Shown here piece after piece: positions 8,467 through 26,793 of a DNA stretch of 64,000 nucleotides (the stretch's first letter is position 1; each line of letters begins with the position of its first letter). The stretch lies in the NCBI RefSeq assembly GCF_001544075.1, contig NZ_BCNT01000009.1:62001-126000 (forward strand), read 5' to 3'. The notes beneath the pieces were generated by a model. That model was not told the origin of the DNA. It did no database searches and saw nothing but the letters and a program-made list of their open reading frames with translations. The position numbers were made by a program, and so were the translations under genes. Source of the DNA: Comamonas terrae (GTDB lineage: Bacteria > Pseudomonadota > Gammaproteobacteria > Burkholderiales > Burkholderiaceae_C).

Positions 8467-8474
8467 GGCCGTTT

Positions 8475-9653: not shown

Positions 9654-10378
9654 GATGTCTCCTGGTCAGGCAAAACCATGACTTCGGCGATGACCGTCCC
9701 TCTTGGCATGCCCAGCAGGAACAGCACGGTGCTGGCCACATTGTCGGGATCCTGCAGCACATCCGGATTCAGGTCGGGAAAGCGCTCGAGCAGAAAGGGG
9801 GTGCGCATGCCGCCGGCAAACAGGGTGGAGACGCGGATGCCGCTGGCTCGCAGTTCCACATGCATTGCTTCGCTGAGTCCGCGCAGGCCCCATTTGCTGG
9901 CGTGGTAGGCGCTTGCATTGGGCCAGGCGCGCAACGCAGCCGTCGAAGCAACGTTGACGATGTGGCCTCCGCGGCCCATGTCGGACTCCCGCAGCATGGG
10001 CAGCGCGGCTTTGCTCAGCAAAAAGGGGCCGAAAAGATTGGTCTGGACGACACGCGTCCATTCCTGGCTTTCTATCTCATCAATGGAGGCGGTATGGTCT
10101 GTGCCGGCATTGTTGATGAGCACGTCGAGGCCGCCCCAGCGTTCGCGTACGGCCGCCAAGGCATCGGCGATGCTGGACTGCTGGCCCACATCGAAATTCA
10201 GGGCCATTGTCGATAGTCCCGAGGGATCGATCGTGCTGGCGATATGTGCGACCTTGCCTGCATCGATGTCCGCAAGAACTACCCGGGCCTGGGCATGCAC
10301 GAGCTTGCGCGAAATGGCGGCGCCAAGACCGCTGCCTGCACCGGTGACCAGCACCGTCTTGTCTTTGAGAGTGTCCAT
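9644..10378 (-). CDS. Short-chain dehydrogenase/reductase
   Basis: This is a 244-residue classical SDR oxidoreductase with TGAGSGLG at residues about 12-19, the NNAG motif and the catalytic Ser/Tyr/Lys arrangement (VASTAA, then YHASK). It is the first gene of the heptose operon running down to gmhA. A role in tailoring a sugar nucleotide is possible but not shown. The ATG at 10378 lies 24 bases after the predicted start from the sigma-54-like site at 10413-10428. No specific substrate motif is visible. Confidence 0.87.
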   Translation of the reverse strand: MDTLKDKTVLVTGAGSGLGAAISRKLVHAQARVVLADIDAGKVAHIASTIDPSGLSTMALNFDVGQQSSIADALAAVRERWGGLDVLINNAGTDHTASIDEIESQEWTRVVQTNLFGPFLLSKAALPMLRESDMGRGGHIVNVASTAALRAWPNASAYHASKWGLRGLSEAMHVELRASGIRVSTLFAGGMRTPFLLERFPDLNPDVLQDPDNVASTVLFLLGMPRGTVIAEVMVLPDQETSWP

Positions 10379-10412
10379 TGTGTCGAAGGTTGGTTGCTAC
10401 CAGGAAATCGGG

Positions 10413-10428
10413 AGCAAGAACCGTTCCC
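10413..10428 (-). promoter_or_regulatory. Putative sigma-54 promoter of the SDR-GT9-hldC-gmhA operon
   Basis: Minus strand reads GGGAACGGTTCTTGCT, with A5, C6, G7 and the full TTGCT of the consensus. Predicted start is about 10402, 24 bases before the ATG at 10378. This is one of the best matches in the window. Confidence 0.65.
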
Positions 10429-10446
10429 GGCGCAGCACGACGTTGT

Positions 10447-10462
10447 GGGTACAGCAATTGCC
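10447..10462 (+). promoter_or_regulatory. Putative sigma-54 promoter of mscS and the ABC fusion
   Basis: GGGTACAGCAATTGCC has correct spacing. The predicted start (about 10473) falls two bases before the ATG at 10475, so the mRNA would be almost leaderless. Either the start codon is further downstream or translation is leaderless. Confidence 0.45.
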
Positions 10463-10474
10463 GCCCGGCGACCC

Positions 10475-11305
10475 ATGAGCTTCGAGAATCTGACTTCACA
10501 TGAGGGCTGGCTGTTTGCTGCGCTCGATGTGGTGCTGTTGAAGGTGGGCGACTTGGCAATCACCGTAGGCTCTCTCCTCAAGCTGGTGCTGCTCATGAGC
10601 CTGCTGTTCTGGTTTGCCGGGGCATTGAGGCGCTGGCTGGTCAGACGGGTGCTGAGCCGCTTCCACGTCGACCATGGAACGCGCATCGCAATCGCTTCCG
10701 TGCTGCGTTATCTGGTGCTGGTTCTGGGCATGGTGCTGATCCTGCAGAACGTGGGCATCAACCTGTCGGCCTTGGGGGTGGTGGCCGGTGCGGTCGGCGT
10801 GGGGGTGGGGTTCGGCCTGCAGAACATCTTCAGCAACTTCATCAGCGGCCTGATCGTCATGCTCGAGAGGCCCATCAAGGTGGGCGACCACATCGAGGTG
10901 GGCTCCATCGCAGGCGTGGTGCGCGAGATCTCGGCCCGGCGCACGACGCTGGTCACGGCGGACAACGTGGCCGTGCTGGTTCCCAACCAGCGTTTCATCG
11001 TGGAAAACGTCATCAACTCCGCCTACCTCGAGGAGCCGGTGCGCCTGCGCATCGCCGCGACGCTGGCCGCAGATACGGATCCCGCACTGCTGGAGCAATT
11101 GCTGATGCAGGTGGCGCGCAGCCACGCGATGGTGCTTGCCGCGCCGGCGCCGCAGATATTGCTGCGCTCCGTGGGCGGGACGTCGCGGCAGTTCGAGTTT
11201 GCATTCTGGTTCCGGCCCGAGGCCATCGCCAGGGAGCTGCTGACCAGCGAACTCAGCAGTGCCCTGGAAGAGGCGTTCTCCGCCAACGGAGTACAGCATG
11301 CCTGA
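10475..11305 (+). CDS. MscS-family mechanosensitive channel
   Basis: This is a small-conductance mechanosensitive channel that releases solutes on hypo-osmotic shock. The 276-residue protein has about three membrane segments (residues about 22-48, 70-93, 98-125). The third is the Gly/Ala-rich pore helix (GVVAGAVGVGVGFGLQNIF), followed by the conserved VMLERPIKVGDHIEVG beta-domain entry. The start at 10475 keeps the whole family region; no good ribosome site precedes it. The end overlaps the ABC-fusion start by eight bases, so the two are translationally coupled and may respond to the same envelope stress. Confidence 0.88.
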   Translation: MSFENLTSHEGWLFAALDVVLLKVGDLAITVGSLLKLVLLMSLLFWFAGALRRWLVRRVLSRFHVDHGTRIAIASVLRYLVLVLGMVLILQNVGINLSALGVVAGAVGVGVGFGLQNIFSNFISGLIVMLERPIKVGDHIEVGSIAGVVREISARRTTLVTADNVAVLVPNQRFIVENVINSAYLEEPVRLRIAATLAADTDPALLEQLLMQVARSHAMVLAAPAPQILLRSVGGTSRQFEFAFWFRPEAIARELLTSELSSALEEAFSANGVQHA

Positions 11306-14081
11306 GTTGAAGAACACCGAAAAAGCGGATGCGGGAGCTGCCCCTGGCATTCTTATGGAGCTGTGGCGCGCCACGTGGCGCTATCGGCGGCGCACCCTCG
11401 CAGCCCTGGTGCTGCTGGTGCTGGCCAAGGTGGCAGCGGTCTGCGTGCCCCTCGTATTCAAGCGGATTGTCGATCTTTTCAGTTCCCCTGGGAGCCTGGC
11501 GTCCGAACTGAATACCGGAACATCGCCGCTGGCGCCCAACGGGGCCCACATCATCATGCTGCCGGTTTTTCTGCTGGTCGGGTATGCGCTGCTGCGTTTC
11601 CTGAGCACGTTGTTTACCGAGCTGCGTGACCTGTGCTATGCCCGTGTCACCCTGGTCACGGTGGCAGATTTTGCGCAGCGCGCGCTGGCGCACATGCACC
11701 GGATGGGGCCGCGCTTTCACCTGCAGATGCATACCGGCGCGATGATCCGCGACATGGATCGGGGCACCGCCGGAGTGGGCTTTCTGCTGGGCGCCCTGCT
11801 GTTCACGCTGCTGCCCACGCTGGTGGAGATTGTGTCCGTGATGGCCATCATGGCGGCCGGCTACAGCCTCTGGTTCACCGCCATCATCTTTCTCACCTTC
11901 ATCGTCTATGCCAGCTACACCACGGTGATGACACGGCGCAGAGTCCTGTTCCAGCGCCGTGTCAACGAGCTTGATTCACGCTCCAACGGCCTGCTGCTCG
12001 ACAGCCTGGTCAACCAGGAAGCCGTGCGCAACAACGCACGCGGCCCGCAGGAAGTGCAGCGCTACCAGAAGGCCCGCAACGCCTGGGTGGAGCAAAGCGT
12101 GGAAAACCAGAAGGCACTGTCGGCGCTGCATCTGGGCCAGGGGGCCATCATCGCTTTCGGCGTGGGGGCCATCATGCTTTTTGCCGGCCTGGAGGCAATA
12201 CATGGCCGCATCACCGTGGGCGATCTGGTATTGCTCAATACCTATGTGATCCAGATCTGCCTGCCGCTCAATGCCCTGGGCTTTCTGTTCCGCGAGGCCC
12301 GCGATGCGCTGACCAACGCCGAAAAGCTGCGGCAGATGCTGGCACTGCGTCCCGAAATCGAGGAAAGTGCGCGCGCCACTCCGCTGACCGTCACACGCGG
12401 CGAAGTGATCTTCGAGCATGTCGATTTTTCCTACGAACCCGGGCGCCAGGTGCTGTGGGACGTCAGTTTCCGGATCGGGCCCGGCCAGACAGTCGCGGTG
12501 GTGGGCGGCAGCGGTTCGGGCAAATCCACTTTGGCGCGCCTGCTGCTGCGCACCTATGACCCGCAGCGCGGGCGGGTACTCATCGACGACTGCGACATCA
12601 GCATGGTGACGCTGGAGAGCTTGCGCGCTGCGGTAGGCGTGGTTCCCCAGGACAGTACGCTGTTCAATGAAAGCGTGGCGTACAACATCGCCTATGGCCG
12701 GCCCGGAGCTTCCATGGTCGAAATCATCGAAGCGGCAAAGGCCGCGCAGATCGATGAGCTCATTGCCTCCCTGCCCCAGCATTTCGATACCCTGGTGGGG
12801 GAGCGCGGCCTGAAGCTGTCGGGGGGAGAGAAACAGCGCATTGCCATTGCGCGCGCGTTCCTCAAGAACGCGCCGATCATGCTCCTCGATGAGGCCACTT
12901 CGGCGCTGGATACCCGCTCGGAGAAAGCCATTCAGACGCAGCTGGACAGGCTGGCAGCCCACCGCACCACGCTGGTGATCGCGCACCGGCTCTCCACGAT
13001 TGTGGATGCCGACCATATCCTGGTGCTCGACAAAGGCCGCATCGTGGAGCAGGGGGGACACGAGGAGCTGCTTTCACGGCGCGGCCTGTATGCGCAGCTC
13101 TGGGACCTGCAGCTTCAGAAGCAGGAGTTCGATCGGCTCGAAAGAAAGCTGGTGCGCCAGCCGCTCAATCTGGGCGTGCTGCTGGCCAGTGTGGTCGACG
13201 GCCTGGGCAGTGTGCTGGAGGCCAAGTCGATCCAGCTCTATACCCATATCCATCCGGAGCCCTTGCGCATCAGCGGCGACCCTTCGGTACTGTCGCAGGC
13301 CATCTGGGACATCTGCATGCACGCGATCGACGCGACACCCGCGGGCGGGCGCATCGAGTTGCGGCTGGAGCGTGCGGGCGAGCGCGCACAGCTGTCGTTG
13401 ACGGATGGCCGGCATCTATCGCCATCGGACTCCTCCGTGCAGGAGCCTGTTTCTTCCAAGTTCGATCCGCTGGTGCTGCGCTCGTCCATAGAGCGCCAGG
13501 GCGGCAAGCTGACGATCAAGCTGCCTACCTCGGTGCAGGGAATGCGCTTTTCGGTGGATTTGCCCCTGCGCGGGACCCGCGCCACGGCCGCGGGCGGCGC
13601 TGCGCTGCTGCCAGGGCAGCCCGAGTCCGCCGGCCTGGGCGGGGTGGAGGTGCTGATCGTGGACGACAGCGAGGCCGTGAGGGCTTTCTTCGAATCCGTA
13701 TTGCACGCCGAGGGCGCCCGCACCTACAGTTTTTCCTCGGGGCAGCAGGTGTTGGACTGGCTTGAAGCGCGGCCGTTGCAGCAATGGCCTGCGGTGCTGA
13801 TCTGCGACAGCTCGCTCGGAAAGGAGGACGGACGCCAGGTGATGGCGCGGATCCGCGACATGGAAGAGGCAAAAGGCATAGCGCTGGCAAGAAGAATGTC
13901 CGCCATTGCCCTGACAAATTCATCGCAGCCCAATGAAGGTTTGATCGTGCTGATGTCGGGCTTTCAATCCCATCTTTCCAAAACTGCCTCCCCTTCCGAG
14001 GTGATTGCCGGCGTTGCCGCCTTGGCGCGACGGGGTGGACACGCAGCTGTGCAGACGAATGAGCAAGGAGAACAGAAATGA
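11298..14081 (+). CDS. ABC exporter fused to a degenerate HATPase-like module and a receiver domain
   Basis: The 927-residue protein has an unusual domain order. Residues about 25-330 form a type-1 ABC exporter membrane domain. Residues about 370-600 form its ATPase, with Walker A GGSGSGKST (about 402-410), the LSGGEKQR signature (about 505) and Walker B IMLLDEATSA. Residues about 620-770 resemble a histidine-kinase ATPase domain (GDPSVLSQAIWDICMHAIDATPAGG), but the N-box Asn is His and the DxGxG loop is lost. The last 140 residues form a receiver domain with VLIVDDSE, phospho-acceptor D837 and conserved K895. The start overlaps mscS by eight bases, and the end overlaps the next small gene by four. 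The exported substrate is unknown. Confidence 0.88.
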   Translation: MPELKNTEKADAGAAPGILMELWRATWRYRRRTLAALVLLVLAKVAAVCVPLVFKRIVDLFSSPGSLASELNTGTSPLAPNGAHIIMLPVFLLVGYALLRFLSTLFTELRDLCYARVTLVTVADFAQRALAHMHRMGPRFHLQMHTGAMIRDMDRGTAGVGFLLGALLFTLLPTLVEIVSVMAIMAAGYSLWFTAIIFLTFIVYASYTTVMTRRRVLFQRRVNELDSRSNGLLLDSLVNQEAVRNNARGPQEVQRYQKARNAWVEQSVENQKALSALHLGQGAIIAFGVGAIMLFAGLEAIHGRITVGDLVLLNTYVIQICLPLNALGFLFREARDALTNAEKLRQMLALRPEIEESARATPLTVTRGEVIFEHVDFSYEPGRQVLWDVSFRIGPGQTVAVVGGSGSGKSTLARLLLRTYDPQRGRVLIDDCDISMVTLESLRAAVGVVPQDSTLFNESVAYNIAYGRPGASMVEIIEAAKAAQIDELIASLPQHFDTLVGERGLKLSGGEKQRIAIARAFLKNAPIMLLDEATSALDTRSEKAIQTQLDRLAAHRTTLVIAHRLSTIVDADHILVLDKGRIVEQGGHEELLSRRGLYAQLWDLQLQKQEFDRLERKLVRQPLNLGVLLASVVDGLGSVLEAKSIQLYTHIHPEPLRISGDPSVLSQAIWDICMHAIDATPAGGRIELRLERAGERAQLSLTDGRHLSPSDSSVQEPVSSKFDPLVLRSSIERQGGKLTIKLPTSVQGMRFSVDLPLRGTRATAAGGAALLPGQPESAGLGGVEVLIVDDSEAVRAFFESVLHAEGARTYSFSSGQQVLDWLEARPLQQWPAVLICDSSLGKEDGRQVMARIRDMEEAKGIALARRMSAIALTNSSQPNEGLIVLMSGFQSHLSKTASPSEVIAGVAALARRGGHAAVQTNEQGEQK

Positions 14082-14359
14082 AGAAACGCCAAATACGAAA
14101 AATTCCGGGAGCCCCATTGAAGCCCAGGGTCCATGTGGGCCAGGCCCCGCATGCGCCGGGCGAATCGGGTCCTGCACAGCCGCAGCTGAGATTGCCCAAC
14201 GAGCGTGACGAGAGCACGGATGCGACCAGCCGACAGCCGGATCCTGCCATGGAGCAAGCCGCACAGGATCTCAAATCCGGGCAGGTGGACACCGATCTGC
14301 GCAATACGCCGGGCCTGGATGCCCAACACAGGGAAAAGCTGCTGCGCAAATCGCGTTAG
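14078..14359 (+). CDS. Small hydrophilic protein of unknown function
   Basis: This is a 93-residue, Pro/Arg/Gln-rich, probably disordered protein with no recognised domain. Its ATG overlaps the stop of the ABC-receiver fusion (ATGA), so it is the third gene of the mscS operon and probably translated by coupling. The C-terminal part (ATSRQPDPAMEQAAQDLKSG, then TDLRNTPGLDAQHREKLLRK) looks conserved in style and ends in a basic helix. It could be an accessory factor of the fusion protein, but this is inference from position only. Confidence 0.6.
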   Translation: MKKRQIRKIPGAPLKPRVHVGQAPHAPGESGPAQPQLRLPNERDESTDATSRQPDPAMEQAAQDLKSGQVDTDLRNTPGLDAQHREKLLRKSR

Positions 14360-14487
14360 CGCCCGGCGTCAGTGCGCCTCCTGTGTGCCAAGGGGCATGT
14401 GGTGCGTTGGCTCGGCGGGAGCGCTGCAAGGATTGCAGAACGGTTTACAAGCAGGCGCTGCCGCAGCCAAGTCCCGTACCCGTGCGC

Positions 14488-14503
14488 AGGCATGGCGTTT
14501 GCC
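14488..14503 (+). promoter_or_regulatory. Putative sigma-54 promoter of the Gly/Tyr/Gln-rich gene
   Basis: AGGCATGGCGTTTGCC matches GG, C, A, G and TTGC of the consensus with correct spacing. Predicted start is about 14514, giving a 54-base leader to the ATG at 14568. Confidence 0.6.
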
Positions 14504-14567
14504 AACCCTCAGGGCAGGCTTCATTTTCCGGAGTCTGGTATTGCAACGCATATGAAAGGATCCAGTA

Positions 14568-15575
14568 ATGGCACAACACGAAGAGCACGGTCGTCAAGGC
14601 ACAGCTCGCCATGCACAGCAGGACATGGGTGAAGGTTTTCAGGGGCGCGAAGGCAACCGGAGCTCCTCTGGAGGCAACTCTGGCGACTGGCGCGGTGAAA
14701 GCGAATACCGGGGCGGCCAGCAAGGCGGGTATCAGGGCGGCTACCAGGGAGGCCAGCAAGGTTACCAAGGTGGCCAGCAAGGCTATCAGGGCGGCTACCA
14801 GGGCGGGCAGCAAAGCCAGCAAGGCGGCGGCTACTACGGCAGCCAGCAAGGTGGTGGAGGCTACGGCGGCCACCAGAGCGGCTACGGCGGAGGCTATGGC
14901 GGCCACCAAGGCGGCTATGGCGGAGGCTACGGCGGCTATCAAGGTGGCGGCTATGGTGGCCAGCAGGGCGGCTATTCCGGCGGCGGCTACGAATCGGGCA
15001 TGGGCGGCAACGAATACGGGTCCGGCTATCAAGGCGGCGGCTATGGTGGTGGCTACGGCAGCCAGGGTCGCTACGGCGGCCAGCAAGGCCAGTATGGGGG
15101 AGGCTCGTCGCAATGGCAGGGCCGCCAGGGCTCGCAGGGCCAATATGGCTCCAGCGGTTATGGCGGCTATGGCGGTGGCTACGGCGGCAACCAGCAGGGC
15201 GGCTCGCAAGGCTGGGAAGGCGGCGGCCAGGGCCAGGGATGGCATCAAGGCCGTTCGGGCGGACATCATGAGCATTTCGACCCTGACTACAGCCAGTGGC
15301 GTGACGAGCAGGTGCGGGCGCTGGATGAGGATTACCGCTCCTGGCGCAATGACCGCTACAAGAAGTTCTCGGATGAGTTCTCGCAGTGGCGCAATCAGCG
15401 TACCAACAACAGCAAGCCTTCCGGTTCCGCGTCGGGCTCGACATCGGGCTCTTCAACGAGCGGGACGTCCGGCTCCACATCGGGGACGGCTTCCGGATCG
15501 TCCGCCAGCGGCCATGACAGCACTACTGGCTCTACCGGTTCTACCGGTTCTACCGGCTCCAAGGGCAGCCATTGA
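14568..15575 (+). CDS. Gly/Tyr/Gln-rich low-complexity protein
   Basis: The 335-residue protein has three zones. Residues 1-45 are polar. Residues about 46-225 are built of degenerate GGYGG, GGQQGGYQGG and related units, a prion-like or condensate-forming composition rich in Gly, Tyr and Gln. Residues about 240-285 form a charged, Trp-containing helical segment with repeated SQWR/SWRND motifs. A Ser/Gly/Thr tail follows. There is no signal peptide. AAGGATCC precedes the ATG, and a sigma-54-like promoter lies 65 bases upstream. Proteins with the Trp-Arg C-terminal segment accompany stress genes in other proteobacteria, but I cannot name a function. Confidence 0.8.
   Translation: MAQHEEHGRQGTARHAQQDMGEGFQGREGNRSSSGGNSGDWRGESEYRGGQQGGYQGGYQGGQQGYQGGQQGYQGGYQGGQQSQQGGGYYGSQQGGGGYGGHQSGYGGGYGGHQGGYGGGYGGYQGGGYGGQQGGYSGGGYESGMGGNEYGSGYQGGGYGGGYGSQGRYGGQQGQYGGGSSQWQGRQGSQGQYGSSGYGGYGGGYGGNQQGGSQGWEGGGQGQGWHQGRSGGHHEHFDPDYSQWRDEQVRALDEDYRSWRNDRYKKFSDEFSQWRNQRTNNSKPSGSASGSTSGSSTSGTSGSTSGTASGSSASGHDSTTGSTGSTGSTGSKGSH
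14707..15240 (+). repeat. Degenerate coding tandem repeat (GGYGG / GGQQGGYQGG units)
   Basis: Short imperfect in-frame units encode Gly-Gly-Tyr and Gly-Gln-Gln blocks of the low-complexity protein. A second, perfect nine-base unit repeats near 15529-15556. Such tracts vary in length between strains by slippage. Confidence 0.8.
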
Positions 15576-15614
15576 TGCTGCGTAGTTGACCGTGCGGCCC
15601 GGCCGCAAGCAATG

Positions 15615-15647
15615 AATGCCGCCAGCGGCCCATCCGCTGGCGGCATT
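15615..15647. terminator. Bidirectional hairpin between the low-complexity gene and rpoN
   Basis: AATGCCGCCAGCGG (15615-15628) pairs perfectly with CCGCTGGCGGCATT (15634-15647) around a five-base loop. It lies between two convergent genes, so it can stop transcripts from both sides. Its base is shared with the hairpin at 63905. Confidence 0.75.
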
Positions 15648-15655
15648 GTCATTTT

Positions 15656-17065
15656 CTAGAAGTAGCGGCGACGCTTTTCGACCGGGGCAATCTGGAGCAG
15701 CTGGCGGTATTTGGTAACGGTGCGCCGGGCGACCACCAGTCCCTGCATGGCCAGCTGATCGGTGATCTTTCCATCGGACAGGGGCTGGGCGGGGGATTCC
15801 GCAGCGATGATGTCGCTGATCAGTTCACGGATGGCGGTGGCCGAGCAGGCCTTGCCGCTTGCGCTCAGCATGGGACGCGAGAAGAAGTATTTCAGCTCGA
15901 AGACGCCCAGTGGCGTGGCCATGTATTTGTTGTTGGTGACCCGGGAGACCGTGGATTCGTGCACCCCGATTTCATCTGCAATCTCCCGCAGAAGCAAAGG
16001 CTTCATCGCCATGGCGCCGAACTCCAGGAACAGGTGCTGCTTGCGCACGATGGCCTGGGCGACATCCAGAATGGTCGAGAAACGCTGGGCGACATTGCGC
16101 AAAGTCCAGCGGGCGTCCTGAAGATGGTCTGCCAGCTCGGCATGTTCCTTGCGCCGATGCCTCTGGAAAAGCTCCTCGTAGACCTTGTTCATGCGTACCC
16201 GCGGTATCACGGCGGGGTTGAGCTGCACATCCCAACTGCCCTGGCTGCGGCGGACGATGACATCCGGAACGATGTAGTCGGTACGGGATGTGCCGACCGA
16301 CCAGCCGGGACGGGGATTGAGCCGCCGTATGCACGCGATGGCGGCTTCGATGTGCGCGGCCGGCTGTTCCAGCACCTTGCTGAGCTTTCCCACGTCTCGC
16401 GCGGCCAACTTGTCCAGATGATGCTCGATGATGTTCTTGGCAATCCGGCGCAGGAATGTGTCTTCGATGCGCGAGCATTGGAGCATCAGGCATTCACGCA
16501 CGTCGCGAGCTCCCACGCCGGCCGGATCCAGAGACTGCACCAGGCGCAGTGCGATGGTGAGCTCTTCGATCAGGGGGGGCGGCGTGAGGGGAAGGAGCTG
16601 GGCAAGCTCTTCCAGGCTGGTGCGCAGATATCCGTCATCGTCCAGGGATTCGATGATGGCCTGGGCCAGATACAGATCCCGTGAAGACAAGGGCATGACA
16701 TTCACCTGTGTGCGCAAATGCATGGCCAGCGTGGTGTCCGATGCCGTGAGGTCCATGGCAGAGGAGTCCTCGCTGTCCTTGAGGCGTCGTCCTGTCGAGC
16801 CATCGGCCAGCCAGATGTCGCGGTCGCTGGCAAAAGAGTCTTCCCTGGTGAATTCACTGTCCTGGGCAGGCGCATCCGTGGCGGCCGGCTCTCCTGCATT
16901 GGCTTCGAGGTCCTCTTCCTCCAGGAAAGGATTTTCTCCCACCTTGCTGCGCACCATTGCGGCAAAGTCCAGGGAAGACATCTGCAGCAGTTGAACGGCA
17001 CGCTGCAAGCGAGGTGAAAGTGTCTGGGACTGATGCGTGTTGACGCTCAGGTACATTGAACTCAT
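15656..17065 (-). CDS. rpoN: RNA polymerase sigma-54 factor
   Basis: It directs RNA polymerase to -24/-12 promoters and needs an AAA+ activator to open them. The 469-residue product shows region I (QSQTLSPRLQRAVQLLQMSS), an acidic region II, the core-binding and helix-turn-helix domains (HESTVSRVTNNKY), and a near-canonical RpoN box ARRTVTKYRQ at residues about 446-455. The start at 17065 has AGGAG eight bases upstream. The usual rpoN neighbours (lptB upstream, hpf and ptsN downstream) are absent, so this may be a second, specialised copy. Its own promoter region has a strong sigma-54 element, suggesting autoregulation. Confidence 0.95.
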   Translation of the reverse strand: MSSMYLSVNTHQSQTLSPRLQRAVQLLQMSSLDFAAMVRSKVGENPFLEEEDLEANAGEPAATDAPAQDSEFTREDSFASDRDIWLADGSTGRRLKDSEDSSAMDLTASDTTLAMHLRTQVNVMPLSSRDLYLAQAIIESLDDDGYLRTSLEELAQLLPLTPPPLIEELTIALRLVQSLDPAGVGARDVRECLMLQCSRIEDTFLRRIAKNIIEHHLDKLAARDVGKLSKVLEQPAAHIEAAIACIRRLNPRPGWSVGTSRTDYIVPDVIVRRSQGSWDVQLNPAVIPRVRMNKVYEELFQRHRRKEHAELADHLQDARWTLRNVAQRFSTILDVAQAIVRKQHLFLEFGAMAMKPLLLREIADEIGVHESTVSRVTNNKYMATPLGVFELKYFFSRPMLSASGKACSATAIRELISDIIAAESPAQPLSDGKITDQLAMQGLVVARRTVTKYRQLLQIAPVEKRRRYF

Positions 17066-17485
17066 TTCATCTCCTGAATGACATGGTTGGCATGGCGACG
17101 GCCCTTCAGGAAATGCAAGTACCATGCCGCGGCGCGCAGGAGGATTCGAATAGATACACTTTGGGCGCAATTCATGCCCTGGCTTGCTTTTGCCGGCAGC
17201 AGCGGCGGCATTTGCCCAAGGTCTCATCGACAAAATGGGATCCTTGCCGGCATGGGACTTCTTTGTGCCGCAAATTTTTCTGCAGTCTTTGGCTGCCGCC
17301 GTTGCCGCTTTCCCAGGGAAGAGCGGTCCGCAGAAGCTGAGAAGAAAAGCGTGAGGTTCCGGTGCAGGAGGGCGGAGAGCCTCTTGCGCGGAGGAACCGC
17401 CTATGCCGATTTGATGCCGGTATGCGGGGTCCAACGGCACGGCGCTTTTCCCCTTTGGTCTTGCGCGTAAACCAGGAAACATGAA
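17066..17485. other. 420-base divergent intergenic region between rpoN and the kinase gene
   Basis: It contains the rpoN promoter element at 17114-17129. No gene is supported. A weaker element AGGAACCGCCTATGCC (17392-17407, plus strand) has a good -24 half but ATGC instead of TTGC, and could serve the kinase gene at 17486. Confidence 0.5.
17114..17129 (-). promoter_or_regulatory. Putative sigma-54 promoter of rpoN (autoregulation)
   Basis: Minus strand reads CGGCATGGTACTTGCA, matching GGCA, G7 and TTGCA of the consensus. Predicted start is about 17103, with a 38-base leader to the rpoN ATG at 17065. Confidence 0.65.
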
Positions 17486-18880
17486 TTGGCCTCCATGCTC
17501 AAACCTTCACGAACGGTTTTTCTGCTTGTTGCGCTAGCGGTGCTGGCGGCGGTTTTTGCAGCCCTTCTGCTGCATCTGCGCCAGTCCGATTACAGGGCTG
17601 CTGAACGGGAGGCACAGTTGAAAAGCCATTTTCTGGTGCTCTCGTTGCAAAACGAGCTGAACGGCATGGACACGGGTGGAAAGCATGCTGCACGGCCAGA
17701 TGTCGCCGCACCTGTCCATGCCTTGCTGGACACTGCCGCACGCAGGATGATGGATGCCCTGCCTTCCCTTGAGCCGAGGCCCTGGAACGGCCTGCTGGTC
17801 GATGACCTTGGCCGTGTGGTCATCGTTCAGCCTCCCGATTTCTTGGAGGCAGCCCATATCTCGCCACAAGCAATCGCCAAAGCGCATGCACAAGTACAAG
17901 GCCCCTCCGAAAGGTGGGTCCTCATCCAGGACATCGAAGGCGCTTTCCGGCCGGCATATCTGAACAGGACGCCCCAGGGCTGGGCCTGGATTGTTCCGCT
18001 GTCATGCGGTGCACCCCTCGAATGCACCGTATCCCGCACATGGCAGTGGATTGGGGGAGGTGTGCTGCTGCTGGTTCTGGCCTGCATCTTGGTGGTGCGC
18101 ACCGCGAGCCGCAAAAAGGCAGTACCGGATACGGAGAGAACACAGACATCAGCCATATCGGAGCGCAGGGAGGAAATCTTCTCCACGCAGGACCGGTGGG
18201 CAGTCGTGGGGCGGATGGCCGGCCGCTTTGCGCATGAATTCAACAACCAGCTGGGCATCATGAGCAATAGCGCGTACCTGATACAGCGCCGTACCACGGA
18301 TCCCAAACTGGCCTTGCCGACGCAGGCCATGCTGCGTGCCGTGGATGCGGCAAGCCTGCTGACCCAATTCCTGCAAAGGCTGGGCGCGGGCCATGCGACC
18401 CAAACGCAGGCCATCGACCTGACGAACTGGCTGGAAGAGTCCGAGACGACGTTCACCATGGTGCTGGGAAAGTGCATCCCCCTGGATTTGCAGATTGGCA
18501 CCGAGCCGCTTGGAGTATCCGCCGATCCGGAAATACTGGAGCTGGCGCTGATCATCGCCCTGCTGCATATTCGCGCCGCTTTGCAGGATATCGAGCGGGT
18601 TTCCATTTCGGCAGCGGTAATGGGGCCTGACAAGGAGCGGGAGCTTCTTTCGGGGCGTTATGCCGAAATCCTGGTGGTCGCCAAAACGTCCGGAGAAAGC
18701 TCCGGGCCGGTCACCTGGAAACTGCTGGATATTCACGACGAGGGCGAATTGGGTTTGCTGCAGCGGCTGTGCCAGAGCATGGAGGGCTGCGGATGGAGCG
18801 GCCAGAATGACGGTGGCCATATGGCTGTCTCCATCACTTTGCCCATGCCCGGGGAAGACCGGCCGGCACAGAGTGCGTAG
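17486..18880 (+). CDS. Membrane histidine-kinase-like protein with a degenerate ATPase domain
   Basis: The 464-residue protein has a periplasmic sensor region between two membrane segments (residues about 8-28 and 190-208). A dimerisation/phospho-acceptor helix carries an intact H-box (GRFAHEFNNQLGIM, near residue 250). The ATP-binding domain is eroded: the N-box reads LLHIRAAL with His in place of Asn, and no DxGxG or second glycine loop is seen. It is unlikely to autophosphorylate and may be a phosphatase or a phospho-transfer partner. The start is TTG at 17486, eight bases after AGGA; ATG at 17495 is the alternative. It diverges from rpoN. Confidence 0.75.
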   Translation: MASMLKPSRTVFLLVALAVLAAVFAALLLHLRQSDYRAAEREAQLKSHFLVLSLQNELNGMDTGGKHAARPDVAAPVHALLDTAARRMMDALPSLEPRPWNGLLVDDLGRVVIVQPPDFLEAAHISPQAIAKAHAQVQGPSERWVLIQDIEGAFRPAYLNRTPQGWAWIVPLSCGAPLECTVSRTWQWIGGGVLLLVLACILVVRTASRKKAVPDTERTQTSAISERREEIFSTQDRWAVVGRMAGRFAHEFNNQLGIMSNSAYLIQRRTTDPKLALPTQAMLRAVDAASLLTQFLQRLGAGHATQTQAIDLTNWLEESETTFTMVLGKCIPLDLQIGTEPLGVSADPEILELALIIALLHIRAALQDIERVSISAAVMGPDKERELLSGRYAEILVVAKTSGESSGPVTWKLLDIHDEGELGLLQRLCQSMEGCGWSGQNDGGHMAVSITLPMPGEDRPAQSA

Positions 18881-18882
18881 CC

Positions 18883-18898
18883 TGGCAAGCCCATTGCT
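18883..18898 (+). promoter_or_regulatory. Putative sigma-54 promoter of the DUF2383 gene
   Basis: TGGCAAGCCCATTGCT has TGGCA, G7 and TTGCT of the consensus with exact spacing. Predicted start is about 18909, leaving a roughly 100-base leader to the ATG at 19011. Confidence 0.62.
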
Positions 18899-19010
18899 AT
18901 TCATGGGCGCAGATGCCTGCCTCACATCAGGAAGTATTTCGGGCATGCCGAATGCCTGAACCAAGCTGCCAACAGGCAAGCGACTTCATCAACGATCAGG
19001 AAGGCACATC

Positions 19011-19469
19011 ATGGATCCCAAGCAAGTCATCGACACATTGAATGACCTTATTGAAAACTGCCGGGACGGCGAATTCGGATTTAGAAGCACTGCCGAACAT
19101 ACTGGCACCGCTTCCTTGAAGCAGATTTTTCTGGCCCGTGCCGAGGACTGCAAGGCGGCCGCGCAGGAGCTGCAAAATCTCGTGGTCCAGCTTGGAGGCG
19201 AGACAGCCGAAGGCGGTACGCTGGCCGGCGCTGCCCATAGAGGCTGGGTGGCCGTCAAAGGTACGCTGGCCGGGTATGACGACCTCAACATGCTGGAAGA
19301 GGCAGAGCGCGGCGAAGATACCGCAGTGGCACGCTACCGCGAAGCACTGGATCAGGATTTGCCGGATACCGTGCGCCCCGTGGTGCAGCGCCAATATGAA
19401 GGCGCCAAGAGAAACCATCTGCAGATCCGCGAACTCAGGGACCAGGCGCGGCGCAAAGAGAACACCTAA
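19011..19469 (+). CDS. DUF2383 four-helix-bundle protein
   Basis: The 152-residue protein of the DUF2383 (PA2169-like) family adopts a ferritin-like four-helix bundle. Visible family features are the opening VIDTLNDLIENCRDGEFGFR, the middle RAEDCKAAAQELQ, and the closing EALDQDLPDTVRPVV helix. These proteins are recurrent in stress-response neighbourhoods, but the biochemical role is not established. The gene is monocistronic, with a hairpin 10 bases after its stop and convergent to the DUF883 gene. A sigma-54-like site precedes it. Confidence 0.88.
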   Translation: MDPKQVIDTLNDLIENCRDGEFGFRSTAEHTGTASLKQIFLARAEDCKAAAQELQNLVVQLGGETAEGGTLAGAAHRGWVAVKGTLAGYDDLNMLEEAERGEDTAVARYREALDQDLPDTVRPVVQRQYEGAKRNHLQIRELRDQARRKENT

Positions 19470-19478
19470 AGCATGAAC

Positions 19479-19507
19479 AAGCATGTCCGCCCCAAGGCGG
19501 CATGCTT
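19479..19507. terminator. Bidirectional hairpin between the DUF2383 and DUF883 genes
   Basis: AAGCATG-CCGCC (19479-19491, one bulged T) pairs with GGCGG-CATGCTT (19496-19507) around CCAA. It lies between convergent genes. Confidence 0.7.
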
Positions 19508-19596
19508 GCGTTGCTCTTCAAACCGCTTCCTCCATGCCTACTCTACTCGCTTGCGAACGCAGGGGCTGAGGCGTCGGGCATGCCGGCTCACCGTCG

Positions 19597-19962
19597 CTAC
19601 TCCTGGCCGGACCGCTGGCAAAGCCGGGCCAGGATGAAGCCCGCCGCGAATGCCGTGGCCAATGCGGCAACAGGCTTTTCCTTTACGGTGTCCCTCAGGC
19701 ATTCGGTCCACTCTTCGCCGGTGCCTTTCCATTCCCGGGCTTTTTGCTGCACGCTTTCGCTGGCTTTTGCAAACACCTCCTGCGCATACCTTACCTGCGC
19801 CGCAGCGGTATCGGCGAGCTGATTGATCGTCTGATGGGCGCCCTGCTCCAGCTTGTCCAGCGCCTCGGGCCGGCTCGTGTTGGTGCGGTCGGCCTTTTCG
19901 CTGTCCTGGGACGTGGGAAACGGATTGTCGGCGGCGGTGGACTTGGGGGTGTCGTTGTTCAT
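19597..19962 (-). CDS. DUF883 (ElaB/YqjD-like) membrane-anchored protein
   Basis: The 121-residue protein belongs to the ElaB/YqjD/DUF883 group, which anchors to the inner membrane by one C-terminal helix and in E. coli associates with ribosomes in stationary phase. A long amphipathic coiled region (residues about 35-95) leads to KEKPVAALATAFAAGFILA, the membrane anchor. The start at 19962 is supported by AGGAG immediately upstream; a second ATG at 19980 has no such site. It lies 23 bases after the GlsB-like gene and is probably co-transcribed with it. Confidence 0.87.
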   Translation of the reverse strand: MNNDTPKSTAADNPFPTSQDSEKADRTNTSRPEALDKLEQGAHQTINQLADTAAAQVRYAQEVFAKASESVQQKAREWKGTGEEWTECLRDTVKEKPVAALATAFAAGFILARLCQRSGQE

Positions 19963-19985
19963 GCTAACTCCTGTATTCATCCGCA

Positions 19986-20258
19986 TCAGCGCGAAGAGCC
20001 CCGGCGGATCAGGTTGACGATGGCCAGCAGGATGACCGCTCCTGCCAGCGACACGAAAATAGACATGGCGCTGTAGGTATGGTCGTTGATTGTTGATTGC
20101 GGGCCCAGCAGGGGGGTGATCAGCCATCCTCCGATCAGCGCTCCCACCACGCCCACTATCACGTTGAGCAGGAGACCTTGTTGGGCATCGGTGCGCATGA
20201 TCATGCTTGCTATCCAACCGATGAGCCCTCCGACCAATAGCCAGATGAGAAAGTCCAT
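19986..20258 (-). CDS. GlsB/YeaQ/YmgE family stress membrane protein
   Basis: The 90-residue integral membrane protein of the transglycosylase-associated (GlsB/YeaQ/YmgE) family shows the typical three hydrophobic segments and the conserved IGWIASMIM and NVIVGVVGALIGGWL motifs. In enterobacteria the homologues are RpoS-dependent. The ATG at 20258 has GGAG nine bases upstream and lies 24 bases from the start predicted by a sigma-54-like promoter. The DUF883 gene follows in the same direction. Confidence 0.9.
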   Translation of the reverse strand: MDFLIWLLVGGLIGWIASMIMRTDAQQGLLLNVIVGVVGALIGGWLITPLLGPQSTINDHTYSAMSIFVSLAGAVILLAIVNLIRRGSSR

Positions 20259-20293
20259 TGCAGTGATCTCCAAAGTTGCTGGTAATGATGTAG

Positions 20294-20309
20294 GGCAATT
20301 GATATGCCG
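20294..20309 (-). promoter_or_regulatory. Putative sigma-54 promoter of the GlsB-DUF883 pair
   Basis: Minus strand reads CGGCATATCAATTGCC. Predicted start is about 20282, 24 bases before the ATG at 20258. Confidence 0.58.
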
Positions 20310-20312
20310 GTT

Positions 20313-20837
20313 TCAGCTTCCTGTTTCCTTGCGGGGTGAAGTCGCCCTGGATGGGCGCAGCTCGGCGCGTTCGTCTTCCCGGCCCGAAGGGGTCTGTGCA
20401 TCCAGGCCGCTGTCCGGGGACTCCCGGACTTGCGGCAGATCCGTAGGGTGGGCAATCAGCTCCTCGATGATGAAGCGGCCATAGAGCTGGGCGCGCTCGG
20501 CTCCTGCCGTGCGCAGTGCGGCGGCAGCTTGCCGGGCACGGTCGTCGCTGCCCACCCGCACGACAAGCCAGTGATAGCCGCGCTCGGCCAATGCCCGATG
20601 CGCCTTGATGAGGTTGAGCTCCTGTCCGACAGAGGCCACGGGGCTGGCTTTTGCCAAGTCCGCGTCGATCTGGGCCAGCATTTCCCGGTCGGTATATCTG
20701 TGAATGTCCGACGGCCCGAAATGCAGTTTCTCCAGAACCTCGTATCCCTTGTCTGCCAATGGAGCGTTCGCAAAGGATATGACCATGTGGCCGACGGGTT
20801 TGAATACGCCATATGCGTGGTGCTTGCTGGTATCCAT
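20313..20837 (-). CDS. Conserved protein of unknown function
   Basis: The 174-residue soluble protein has no domain I can name. The N-terminal half (HAYGVFKPVGHMVISF, then FGPSDIHRYTDREMLAQID) and a central VVRVGSDDRARQAAAALRTA segment look like an alternating alpha/beta fold. The pattern VxVGSDDxA resembles small stress proteins that bind their own kind by a ferredoxin-like sheet, but this is a guess. The last 35 residues are polar and disordered. GGGAAC lies just upstream of the ATG at 20837, and a strong sigma-54-like site precedes it by 34 bases. The convergent end toward 20258 holds the GlsB promoter. Confidence 0.7.
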   Translation of the reverse strand: MDTSKHHAYGVFKPVGHMVISFANAPLADKGYEVLEKLHFGPSDIHRYTDREMLAQIDADLAKASPVASVGQELNLIKAHRALAERGYHWLVVRVGSDDRARQAAAALRTAGAERAQLYGRFIIEELIAHPTDLPQVRESPDSGLDAQTPSGREDERAELRPSRATSPRKETGS

Positions 20838-20870
20838 GATGGTTCCCTGTTGGTGCCGGGACTTGTCATT

Positions 20871-20886
20871 GGCAAGCAAGATGCCA
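20871..20886 (-). promoter_or_regulatory. Putative sigma-54 promoter of the gene at 20313-20837
   Basis: Minus strand reads TGGCATCTTGCTTGCC: full TGGCA and TTGC. Predicted start is about 20860, 23 bases before the ATG. Confidence 0.65.
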
Positions 20887-20953
20887 TCTCGATCCGTATG
20901 GAAATATTGCGGCAGCTTTTTCTCCAGTGTGACCACGCCGGTATTTGCGAGGC

Positions 20954-20969
20954 AGGTATGTGCATTGCC
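20954..20969 (+). promoter_or_regulatory. Putative sigma-54 promoter of the gene at 21034
   Basis: AGGTATGTGCATTGCC has correct spacing. Predicted start is about 20980, with a 54-base leader. With the site at 20871 it forms a divergent pair only 67 bases apart. Confidence 0.55.
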
Positions 20970-21033
20970 GCCGGCGATATGCGGCCCTGCAGTCAGTCGG
21001 GGGCGTACCCTCAATCGAACAGGAGCACTCACC

Positions 21034-21441
21034 ATGAATATTTTCGCGAGAGAAGCCATTGCCGCAGCAGCGATCGGCCTGCTGGCCGCAGCCGGTGCGG
21101 CACATGCGCAGACCGGCTCTGCTCCGTCCTCCGGCAGCGACGGCAGCACCACGCGTCCCATGCAGGGAAACGGAACCCAGGGAAGCGGGATGCAAGGCAG
21201 CGGTACGTCAGGTAGTGGTACGGCCCCCAGGCCCGAGGCCGGCACGCCGGGCAGCGATCCCTACCCGCCCCAGGTGGGCACAGGGGCGGAGAGCGGCAAC
21301 CGCACTGATGGCCGCCAGATGCCTTCGCCAGGAGGCCGGAACCAGGGGGCCACGACCACTTCTCCTTCGGACAGCCAGTTTCCGAATTCCGATGGCAACT
21401 GGAACAACAATGGCCGCCGCGCGCGTGGCGACCGGGGGTGA
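21034..21441 (+). CDS. Secreted low-complexity Gly/Ser/Thr/Pro-rich protein
   Basis: The 135-residue protein has a clear signal peptide (hydrophobic AIAAAAIGLLAAAGAAHA, cleavage likely before QTGSA). The mature part is low-complexity: repeated GSGMQGSGTSGSG-like units, then Pro- and Asn-rich stretches. It is likely an intrinsically disordered periplasmic or extracellular protein. AGGAG lies eight bases before the ATG. A sigma-54-like promoter precedes it. No homologue with known function is recognised. Confidence 0.72.
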   Translation: MNIFAREAIAAAAIGLLAAAGAAHAQTGSAPSSGSDGSTTRPMQGNGTQGSGMQGSGTSGSGTAPRPEAGTPGSDPYPPQVGTGAESGNRTDGRQMPSPGGRNQGATTTSPSDSQFPNSDGNWNNNGRRARGDRG

Positions 21442-21473
21442 TTCCAGGGGCATGAGCCTGCCGACGGGCCCTC

Positions 21474-22175
21474 CTAAGGGGAGAGCTTCCACGAAGGAGG
21501 AGGCTGAGCCGGCTTTGCTTTGCTGTCCTGACGCCGCGCCAGGGGCGTCAGAAAGGGAAAGGCGTGCTGGATATTGCTGTTTTCCGGCAGGATGTAGGCA
21601 TAGCCGCCCCGCTGCTGAAAGAGCGCGTGCACGCTTCGATTGAAGACCGCAATCGGTACGTTCACGCAGCCGTAAGAGATCCGGTTGTCCGATGCAGTGG
21701 CTGACGCCAGCCGCTGCAGGCGCCTGTCTCCCGGAGCGCCGGGGCGTACACGGTGAAGCGATACCGCGGCGTCGTAATCCACCCAGAAAACGCCTTCCCC
21801 TTCGCTGTTGGTGCCTTTTTCGAGATAGAACCTGCCGGCCGGCGTGGTTCTCTCGCTGGGTTTGATCTGAGCGAGAGGGCGTGCTCCTATCCCAGGCACC
21901 GAGTCGTCGCCGATTGCGCTGCCAAGCAGGACGGCCGAGCTCTCTACCAACTGGCCGGAGCGGTCGTAGATCCACATGCGGGCCGACCGCTTGTCGATGA
22001 TGAGATAGGGCAGCCCACGGTTGTCCTTCATTTGTCCGATCCAGTCTCGCAAGCCCGCTGCCGTTACCGGCATGGAGGGCTCGGACGACGGGGCGACTGG
22101 CTGTGCGGCACCCGCGCACAGGCATGCAGCGGTCAGGCAGCAGGCAAGGCCGGTGGTCCTGTTGGCGTTTTGCAT
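21474..22175 (-). CDS. L,D-transpeptidase (YkuD-type catalytic domain)
   Basis: This periplasmic enzyme probably makes 3-3 cross-links in peptidoglycan or tethers proteins to it. The 233-residue product has a signal peptide (residues about 5-25, ending GAAQ). The YkuD domain begins at PYLIIDKRSARMWIYDR. The catalytic motif reads ISYGCVNVP, with Tyr where most members have His (S-H-G-C), preceded by the conserved upstream His (SLHRVRPG). The catalytic Cys is present. The start at 22175 gives the signal peptide; upstream residues overlap the promoter. A strong sigma-54-like site precedes it. Confidence 0.88.
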   Translation of the reverse strand: MQNANRTTGLACCLTAACLCAGAAQPVAPSSEPSMPVTAAGLRDWIGQMKDNRGLPYLIIDKRSARMWIYDRSGQLVESSAVLLGSAIGDDSVPGIGARPLAQIKPSERTTPAGRFYLEKGTNSEGEGVFWVDYDAAVSLHRVRPGAPGDRRLQRLASATASDNRISYGCVNVPIAVFNRSVHALFQQRGGYAYILPENSNIQHAFPFLTPLARRQDSKAKPAQPPPSWKLSP

Positions 22176-22211
22176 GGTCGTTTCTGCGAGGCGTGTGAAT
22201 GCAGCTTTCGC

Positions 22212-22227
22212 GGCAAAAGCCATGCCG
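22212..22227 (-). promoter_or_regulatory. Putative sigma-54 promoter of the L,D-transpeptidase gene
   Basis: Minus strand reads CGGCATGGCTTTTGCC: GGCA, G7 and TTGC match. Predicted start is about 22201, 26 bases before the ATG at 22175. Confidence 0.65.
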
Positions 22228-22228
22228 C

Positions 22229-22244
22229 GGGAGCGCGGCTTGCC
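22229..22244 (+). promoter_or_regulatory. Putative sigma-54 promoter of the gene at 22256
   Basis: GGGAGCGCGGCTTGCC closely resembles the site at 6256. The predicted start (22255) is one base before the ATG, again implying a leaderless mRNA. It is back-to-back with the site at 22212. Confidence 0.45.
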
Positions 22245-22255
22245 CATGCCGGGGC

Positions 22256-22744
22256 ATGAAAAACACCAGCCGTTTTGCAGATATCGAGGCAGCCCGTACC
22301 GCGGTGAATCTGGCCTTGCCCTTCATCGAGAAGACGCTGGAGCGTCCTGGAGTCAGTGCCAGAAAGGTGCTCCACGTCGTCGTGCTGGACCCTGCCGCGA
22401 CCTGCGACTGCAGCAACTTCGAAGAAGCGCTCCTGTATGAGCATTCGGTCGGCGACCGCCACAACTGGGATGCGGACTATGCCGCCTTCGCGCGCGACAA
22501 GGCCCGGCTGAGCTGGCGCCACCAGATGGGAAGTCGGCATCTCATCCATATGGAGCCCCATCGGCTCTCTCTCTCGGACACCTTGCTCTGGGGAAGTGTG
22601 TGGCTTGACGGAATCGTGGTGGCGGCCAGTGGAGCCATGCCGGCATGGGACGAGGCGTTTTCCTTGTGCGTCGCGGGAAACCTGCGGGCCATTGCCCTGG
22701 AGCGGTCGACAGGCATGCCGATTGCCAAGTCCCAGGGCGATTGA
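22256..22744 (+). CDS. Conserved protein, possibly GlcG/HbpS-like fold
   Basis: The 162-residue soluble protein has no firm family. The C-terminal half (LWGSVWLDGIVVAASGAMPAW, then DEAFSLCVAGNLRAIALE) has the spacing of the GlcG/HbpS heme-binding-type fold, where a glycine-rich strand is followed by DE-x-C/A and a final helix. I rate that as a weak resemblance. The ATG at 22256 has no ribosome-binding site, and the sigma-54-like element ends 12 bases before it. The 3-prime end of the gene contains the putative promoter of the next operon. Confidence 0.65.
   Translation: MKNTSRFADIEAARTAVNLALPFIEKTLERPGVSARKVLHVVVLDPAATCDCSNFEEALLYEHSVGDRHNWDADYAAFARDKARLSWRHQMGSRHLIHMEPHRLSLSDTLLWGSVWLDGIVVAASGAMPAWDEAFSLCVAGNLRAIALERSTGMPIAKSQGD
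22711..22726 (+). promoter_or_regulatory. Putative sigma-54 promoter of the glycosyltransferase operon
   Basis: AGGCATGCCGATTGCC lies inside the last codons of the preceding gene. Predicted start is about 22737, 33 bases before the ATG at 22770. Confidence 0.6.
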
Positions 22745-22769
22745 GTACGACAACGAACCGGAGCAATTG

Positions 22770-24071: not shown

Positions 24072-24706
24072 CAACGAAGAAGCAGTTGAGGCCGGCAATC
24101 TTCGTGGACAAGGACGGCACCCTGATAGACAACGTGCCCTACAACGTGGATCCTGCACTGCTGACGTTCCGGCCGGGGGCGGTCCAGGCCATGGCATTGC
24201 TTGCCGCCAGGGGCTACATGATCGTGATCGTCACCAACCAGAGCGGCATAGCCAGGGGGTGCTTTACACGTGCCCAGCTCATGGAGCTGCGTGACGCCCT
24301 TGCACGGCGCCTGGCAGAGGAAGGGCATGTCTATCTCAAGGGCTTCCAGTTCTGCCCCCATGGACCCGACGAGCATGGGCGTCCCACCTGCCTGTGCAGG
24401 AAGCCCCGGCCCGGGCTGCTGCTGGAGGCGGCCATGCTGTATGGGATAGATCTCGAACGCTCCTGGATGATCGGCGACACGCTCGACGATGTGGAGGCGG
24501 GCCGGCGCGCCGGATGCAAGACCATTCTCTACGACTCCGGAGGAGAGACATTGTGGCGCAATACGCCACTGAGGAAACCCCATGCGCATGTCTTCCATTG
24601 GTCGGAGGTTTCGCGCTTCATCCTGGAATACACAGGCACCAGAAAAGAAAGAGCTGTTTTGAACCTTCCCGTGATGCCCATGAATTATGGACACATTGCG
24701 CGCTGA
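24068..24706 (+). CDS. gmhB: D-glycero-beta-D-manno-heptose 1,7-bisphosphate 7-phosphatase
   Basis: This HAD-family phosphatase removes the 7-phosphate in the ADP-heptose pathway. The nucleophile motif is FVDKDGTLID near the N-terminus. The later ITNQSGIARG and the zinc loop (CPHGPDEHGRPTCLCRKP) are characteristic of GmhB. The final motif is MIGDTLDDVEAG. At 212 residues it is slightly longer than usual owing to a C-terminal extension. The ATG overlaps the upstream stop (ATGA). It completes the set with gmhA, hldA and hldC in this window. A histidinol-phosphatase-like specificity is the alternative. Confidence 0.88.
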   Translation: MTTKKQLRPAIFVDKDGTLIDNVPYNVDPALLTFRPGAVQAMALLAARGYMIVIVTNQSGIARGCFTRAQLMELRDALARRLAEEGHVYLKGFQFCPHGPDEHGRPTCLCRKPRPGLLLEAAMLYGIDLERSWMIGDTLDDVEAGRRAGCKTILYDSGGETLWRNTPLRKPHAHVFHWSEVSRFILEYTGTRKERAVLNLPVMPMNYGHIAR

Positions 24707-26792: not shown

Positions 26793-26793
26793 C

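Follow-up and report, generated by a model that had tools for sequence, protein, structure and literature searches.

RpoN2 of Comamonas terrae, a second sigma-54 factor amid stress genes, and its probable promoter class

The rpoN2 locus

The window analysed in this study, a stretch of 64,000 nucleotides from contig NZ_BCNT01000009.1 of Comamonas terrae, contains rpoN2, a second gene for sigma-54, within an island of stress genes whose approximate limits are 1..44000. The gene lies on the minus strand (15656..17065) and encodes a protein of 469 amino acids. Its reading frame is intact and ends with a stop codon at 15656, while translation likely begins at the ATG at 17065 (MSSMYLSV), which has an AGGAG just 5' of it. 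All three sigma-54 domains were found above the Pfam cut-offs, namely the activator-interacting domain (AID, PF00309, 46 bits), the core-binding domain (CBD, PF04963, 192 bits) and the DNA-binding domain (DBD, PF04552, 195 bits). The RpoN box reads ARRTVTKYRQ and departs from the usual ARRTVAKYR by one clade-wide change to ARRTVTKYR. Domains and box place the protein in the RpoN family.

On the same strand rpoN2 is preceded by a -24/-12 element (GGCATGGTACTTGCA, 17114..17128), in which the GG occupies 17128-17127, ten bases separate GG from GC and the -11 base at 17114 is an A. The element is situated about 50-63 bp 5' of the start codon. Throughout this study a match was called strict if it followed the pattern GG[CA]A[CT][GA]N4TTGC. 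We compared 80 rpoN2 loci of other, named genomes, the best 80 of 366 confirmed loci, and of the 79 in which the gene was readable 69 carried a strict and 72 a strict or looser match near its start. In the reversed text of the same stretches the looser pattern occurred in 4 of 79. The element before rpoN2 is more than a product of chance.

One neighbour of rpoN2 is a Gly/Gln-rich gene (14568-15575). On its other side a gene on the plus strand (17495..18880) encodes a histidine-kinase-like membrane protein which had no significant Pfam match (best E 0.25) and in which the catalytic boxes are unrecognisable. Its H-box is kept in all four aligned proteins. The predicted structure is of low confidence (pLDDT 61.8), so that the fold class alone was used; histidine kinases and phytochromes make up most of the structures that it matches.

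Two classes of sigma-54 factor and a co-inherited activator

A profile search with PF04552 revealed exactly two rpoN genes in the genome (4.72 Mb in 40 contigs, rated 100% complete), and the possibility that rpoN2 is the only copy was therefore rejected. The other gene, rpoN1, lies 3' of lptA-lptB (locus L003, gene labels by reading), an order which is likewise annotated in Comamonas odontotermitis. Judging by the look of the open reading frames, hpf and ptsN are absent beside this lptB-linked rpoN, although no search aimed at them was made. Of 26 RpoN1 loci, 25 had lptB within the flanks retrieved, and the one without it is at a contig end. None of 112 RpoN2 loci, a number that includes repeats of the same gene, had lptB in flanks of 1.5 to 10 kb, in contrast to the canonical locus with lptB directly 5' of rpoN.

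In a protein tree 40 of the 95 distinct RpoN2 sequences separated from 27 RpoN1 rows with support of 100/99, and the copy in the window fell into the RpoN2 clade. Copies had been sorted as RpoN1 or RpoN2 by their closer resemblance to one of the two proteins of the window genome. The RpoN2 side also includes the RpoN2 of Burkholderia multivorans and that of a Comamonadaceae plasmid, the exact place of the latter being unsure among long branches. RpoN1 and RpoN2 of the window genome share 43-46% identity; tree and identity together led us to reject a recent duplication of rpoN1 as the origin of rpoN2. These results bear out the original prediction of a second sigma-54 factor that lies outside the usual lptB context, between a low-complexity gene and a degenerate kinase gene, and follows a -24/-12 element. 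The genome search and the phylogeny which it had proposed yielded the copy after lptA-lptB and the separate branch, and rpoN2 is not a sole copy kept in one context by all relatives since it occurs in only 5 of 53 genus genomes (E 1e-105).

The two classes can be told apart by individual residues. The box reads RRTVTKYR in all 95 distinct RpoN2 sequences, one of which starts with SRRT instead of ARRT, and RRT[VI]AKYR in all 26 RpoN1 sequences. Four residues past the T/A position RpoN2 has glutamine, while RpoN1 has glutamate (24/26) or aspartate (2/26). Altogether 20 positions separate the classes under an 80% rule. Five of them are the A to T and E to Q changes just described and, in the DNA-binding part beyond the box, T to N at position 378 and GS to SR at 396-397 (RpoN1 to RpoN2). 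We take position 378 to lie in the helix-turn-helix and 396-397 just after it, and the placement of the box is likewise assumed. In alignments the solved sigma-54 factors 7qxi, 7qwp and 5ui8 resembled RpoN1 in their letters at position 378 and in the box.

Further variants of the box were seen in 29 order-wide loci. Seven extra rpoN copies (L235-L240, L248) carry the variants or tails TVTKYRR, TVTKYRN, TVSKYRG, TVSKYRA and TVAKYRH. None of the seven matches our home-made lptB motif, which 21 of the other loci contain. They were left out of the tree and may be additional sigma-54 factors with specialised roles. L234, closely related to B. multivorans, has TVTKYRQ, also without the lptB motif. 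On plasmid CP099607.1 (L228) a divergent RpoN2 and a nearby GSFTGA activator are located beside gallate and metal-resistance genes.

RpoN2 was found in 73 of 399 family genomes at E 1e-100, a cut-off that might admit a few other rpoN copies. The genera among the best 80 loci comprise Comamonas, Delftia, Hydrogenophaga, Rubrivivax, Roseateles/Pelomonas, Azohydromonas, Aquabacterium, Rhizobacter, Ramlibacter and others. This distribution is closely shared by a putative cognate enhancer-binding protein encoded on the minus strand of the window (26794..28257), which according to Pfam consists of a receiver, an AAA+ domain and a Fis-type helix-turn-helix and has a GSFTGA loop. It is the best of nine strong sigma-54 activator matches in the genome, besides which four more were weak. 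At E 1e-100 its ortholog occurs in the same five of 53 genus genomes as RpoN2 (Fisher test, 3.5e-7). In the family sample 71 genomes have both genes, 319 have neither, two have RpoN2 only (G389, G425) and seven the activator only (G092, G180, G237, G252, G290, G416, G433), with p 9e-68; both p-values overstate the association as the genomes are related. Judged by this distribution, the activator is co-inherited with RpoN2 as in dedicated sigma-54/activator pairs. All 36 clustered orthologs have the GSFTGA loop. Among the eight other strong activators of the genome the loop is GAFTGA in five, GSFTGA in one (L014) and unreadable with the patterns used in two; because of L014 the GSFTGA loop is not unique to the RpoN2 partner. 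A strict element was detected 5' of the activator gene in 2 of 30 upstream regions, and therefore the activator is probably expressed independently, with phosphorylation as its switch.

Promoter matches in the island and their -11 base

Across 81 sequences (the 80 loci and the window) 1029 upstream regions with a total of 183,642 bp contained 321 strict matches, whereas the same DNA gave 3 matches in reversed text and 1.1 per shuffle. The opposite strand of these regions, in which divergent genes share DNA, held 161. The density amounted to 175 per 100 kb upstream versus 2.4 per 100 kb of coding DNA. Without rpoN2 itself, a strict match was present in 250 of 950 upstream regions and in 76 of the 81 sequences. 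Genes were called with a simple home-made caller and not with Prodigal; early sigma-54 weight matrices used approximate frequencies, and the later counts given here are of plain patterns. In the genome of C. terrae 10 of 29 island upstream regions had a strict match versus 0 of 218 elsewhere (20 stretches of 20 kb) and 0 of 8 in the part of the window from 44 to 64 kb. In total the 44 kb of the island contain 16 strict matches and the 44-64 kb part none. The exact pattern CAGGCATGNNNNTTGCC, which was derived from three sites of the island, has no further copy in the genome. Where genes follow one another in tandem pairs, 131 matches pointed towards the gene and 24 away from it. The spacing is fixed, with N4 in 172 cases, N3 in one and N5 in none, and symmetric versions are rare.

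The -11 base divides these matches into two classes. At 67 rpoN2 promoters of the 80 loci it is G in 38, A in 28, T in one and C in none, i.e. a purine in 66 of 67. At 245 matches before other island genes it is C in 212, T in 25, A in six and G in two, i.e. a pyrimidine in 237 of 245. A pyrimidine majority was observed in 74 of the 76 sequences with such matches. In the window the rpoN2 element has A, and the other eight matches of that set have C. Similarly, the rpoN2 promoter on the Comamonadaceae plasmid has G and its only other strict element has C. Moreover, a T before the GG, the classical base in the consensus quoted for sigma-54 promoters (PMC4371752, PMC4676750), is rare at island promoters (18/245). 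At candidate RpoN1 promoters of the C. terrae genome outside the island the -11 base was C in two, G in four, A in four and T in four of 14 intergenic TGG-type sites; this is a weak control, as the sites are unverified promoters and were counted from 30 of 32.

Upstream of rpoN2 in other genomes (L090-L169) we also noticed a dyad, CGGYA-N5-TRCCG, often followed by CAA and mostly 140-270 bp 5' of the gene, which is a candidate activator site. It occurs 27 times in 21 kb upstream of rpoN2 versus 36 times in 163 kb of other upstream DNA. Over whole loci the count was 76 versus 39 in reversed text, and the window has no intergenic copy; because of this weak excess and the missing window copy the dyad remains a lead. 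An unbiased count of dyads yielded, for the most part, divergent promoters of island genes.

The elements of the island precede a variety of genes, several of which were assigned with Pfam. On the plus strand, elements with C at -11 were located at 1340..1354 before gene 1387-2043, at 14489..14503 before the Gly/Gln-rich gene, at 22712..22726 before a glycosyltransferase gene (22770-24071) and at 34311..34325 before a CBS-domain gene (34382-34861) that is followed by a DUF892-type gene. The element at 22712..22726 is outside the ten counted regions since it overlaps the end of the previous open reading frame. On the minus strand, C at -11 is found at 20294..20308 before a transglycosylase-associated (GlsB-type) gene (19986-20258, Pfam), at 22212..22226 before a gene ending at 21474 with a YkuD match below the cut-off, at 29895..29909 about 250 bp before a PfkB-family kinase gene (28717-29658, Pfam), at 34089..34103 about 257 bp before a DNA topoisomerase IB gene (32839-33846, Pfam) and at 38664..38678 before an S9 peptidase gene (36653-38635). 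A short-chain dehydrogenase gene (9644-10378) has an element with T at -11 (10413..10427, minus). Two looser elements on the plus strand precede an MscS-type channel gene (10448..10462, GGTACA..TTGCC), whose homologue in the genus relative G032 has a similar element 27 bp 5', and a DUF2383 gene (19011-19469, Pfam; element 18884..18898, GGCAAG..TTGCT). Further members on the minus strand, both assigned with Pfam, are a large-type (KatE-like) catalase gene (38960..41041) and a Ku gene (41144..42103); a strict element at 42596-42610 lies about 490 bp 5' of the latter, too distant for counting.

Among the 80 loci the commonest neighbour families of rpoN2 were DUF2383 (36), the activator (35) and two histidine-kinase families (27 and 21), followed by hemerythrin-like (26), CBS (23), BON-type lipoprotein (18), short-chain dehydrogenase (17), topoisomerase IB (16) and GlsB-like (13) proteins. 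Several of these labels were given by sequence reading, and Pfam was run on window proteins only. The G+C content per 4-kb block is 0.53-0.64 in the island and 0.65-0.68 past 44 kb, which would fit acquired DNA. The island also encodes a 927-aa ABC exporter (11298-14081, plus strand), with membrane and ATPase domains fused to a weak HATPase-like region and a response-regulator receiver; a protein 67% identical to it is present in G032. A tRNA-Leu called by ARAGORN at 26561-26635 (minus strand) inside a glycosyltransferase gene is probably spurious.

Interpretation and comparison with known systems

On these sequence data, i.e. the second copy, its clade and diagnostic residues, the co-inherited activator, the density and orientation of the promoter matches and the -11 split, we consider it likely that RpoN2 represents an ancient, specialised paralogue among the sigma-54 factors of the Burkholderiales which has its own activator, promoters with a pyrimidine at -11 and a stress-protection regulon, and stands at the lower end of a cascade driven by RpoN1. 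The RpoN1 holoenzyme would most likely read rpoN2 from its purine -11 promoter. RpoN2, rather than RpoN1, would then direct the polymerase to promoters with a pyrimidine, mostly C, at -11 (C-11 promoters), and these would be opened by the GSFTGA response regulator at 26794-28257. The regulon would consist of stress-protection genes, many of which are gathered round rpoN2 and the activator gene. Histidine kinases of the island are a candidate signal source and one of them may feed the activator. The neighbour kinase family with 21 loci is represented by an apparently intact hybrid kinase. The H-box block of this representative (NNLLGVISNSAYLIERR) is similar to the one in the kinase-like protein encoded next to rpoN2 in the window. 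Stationary phase, drying or another general stress might be the trigger. More tentatively, and as a statement that falls just short of being probable, RpoN2 and its activator could form a sigma-54 general stress response, spread as a movable module through the Burkholderiales and having its own pyrimidine -11 code, in which RpoN1 switches on rpoN2.

Several observations weigh against this interpretation. The window and three relatives had already been inspected when the strict pattern was settled on. When the wider regions were tested in three genus relatives, only 4 of 32, 3 of 50 and 2 of 40 upstream regions had a strict match. Besides the 24 wrong-way matches in tandem pairs, 16 matches fell into 23.7 kb between convergent genes, where no promoter is expected; both groups may partly stem from gene-calling errors. 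Whole-genome counts of CRGGCAYGNNNNTTGCC are no marker, with 5 to 9 in genomes with RpoN2 and 1 to 10 in those without. The clustered activator lies inside the fetched flanks at 35 of 80 loci, and no strict element belongs to the catalase gene of the window. The -11 split is defined by the very data in which it was noticed, and the rpoN2 promoters are orthologous, so that the 67 cases are not independent. Finally, the B. multivorans RpoN2 locus has four strict elements with one C and three G at -11 and none before rpoN2 itself. Because this locus lacks the split, the -11 rule may hold in only part of the order.

Positive autoregulation, in which RpoN2 and its activator would transcribe rpoN2 as well as the island, had been predicted together with a dedicated regulon. 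The regulon gained support from the concentration of strict matches in the island, their -11 class and the co-inherited activator. Autoregulation did not, and we regard it as unlikely: it would be in line with the conserved element before rpoN2 and with the candidate dyad, which is shared by rpoN2 and some island genes, but the purine at the rpoN2 promoters sets them apart from the other island promoters, and in Ralstonia solanacearum a reporter showed that an rpoN1 mutant no longer expressed rpoN2 (PMC4371752). The -11 split and these mutant data make a cascade from RpoN1 to RpoN2 likelier than autoregulation, the step itself having been demonstrated with a reporter in R. solanacearum only. 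Rather unlikely, too, is a redundant pair, in which RpoN1 also serves the island and RpoN2 adds to the sigma-54 dose or replaces RpoN1 under some conditions. RpoN2 keeps all sigma-54 domains, and plasmid-borne RpoN2 rescued R. solanacearum rpoN1 mutants on C4-dicarboxylates; for other substrates, however, the published account found the proteins not interchangeable (PMC4676750). Diagnostic changes in presumed DNA-contacting parts and the different -11 bases of island and rpoN2 promoters also speak against redundancy.

It is very improbable that RpoN2 acts as an antagonist occupying RpoN1 promoters, as the R. solanacearum authors speculated, given that it retains the activator-interacting region, shares its inheritance with an activator and lies amid promoters that form a separate class. 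Furthermore, an rpoN2 mutant of Burkholderia pseudomallei lost katE expression (PMC4745423), and this target fits the island because it contains a KatE-type catalase gene, albeit one without a strict element. Hardly credible, finally, is that the island motif is the site of a dyad-binding transcription factor. With C at -11 the motif is nearly palindromic (GGCA-N7-TGCC), and such a factor could account for the matches between convergent genes. Due to the orientation in tandem pairs, the fixed asymmetric spacing and the scarcity of symmetric versions, a promoter fits better than a repressor dyad, and a palindromic regulator site was judged unlikely.

Second rpoN genes and single effects of them are already known. 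Among the papers listed in searches on an RpoN2 stress regulon, none besides the katE paper (PMC4745423) pointed to one. Taken as one system, the island-wide regulon, the two classes of promoter, the RpoN box that tells the sigma factors apart and the activator inherited along with RpoN2 appear to be new. For second rpoN genes in Burkholderiales our interpretation offers a concrete answer that is cheap to test: they would serve a stress regulon together with a specified partner activator, at promoters that can be scanned for by their code, and with residues that are likely to set this specificity. As far as sequence can tell, a gene that looked like a spare would thus gain a testable role, serving separate stress-protection genes via slightly different promoters. 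If true, the system would also offer a natural setting in which to ask how a cell with two sigma-54 factors prevents confusion between their promoters.

The general stress regulons of RpoS and EcfG have a similar gene content (catalase, Ku/LigD, small stress proteins). These two regulons use factors of the sigma-70 family, which need no ATP-driven activator. The RpoN2 of B. multivorans (plasmid copy L229) belongs to the clade, has the box ARRTVTKYRQ and adjoins CBS, PRC-barrel, DUF892, Ku and ligD genes; it differs in having G at -11 in three of four elements and no strict element before rpoN2. In B. pseudomallei rpoN2 is located on chromosome 2 and is needed for expression of katE, the one target gene followed up in the published study (PMC4745423). 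R. solanacearum RpoN2 (Rsp1671), which we compared by published statements and outside the tree, is also encoded by a second rpoN and is 44% identical to RpoN1. Its gene likewise has a predicted -24/-12 element 5' of it (TGGCACAGCCTTTGCA, -11 = A), and the GSFTGA activators Rsp1667 and Rsp1668 were listed with RpoN2 as a possible target. Its role was termed enigmatic and no phenotype was reported, and the consulted sections describe neither a stress regulon nor a promoter class for it (PMC4371752, PMC4676750). Paralogous sigma-54 factors are likewise known from Cereibacter (Rhodobacter) sphaeroides, which has RpoN1 to RpoN4. Their regulons concern nitrogen fixation, flagella and an Xre-type repressor, with no stress island mentioned in the parts consulted, and what distinguishes RpoN1 from RpoN2 is the base at -11 of the promoter together with the cognate activators (PMC11999139, PMC3162934). 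A -11 promoter class of this kind, which did not appear at the one Burkholderia locus examined, is present in the loci described here, the same data that define the split.
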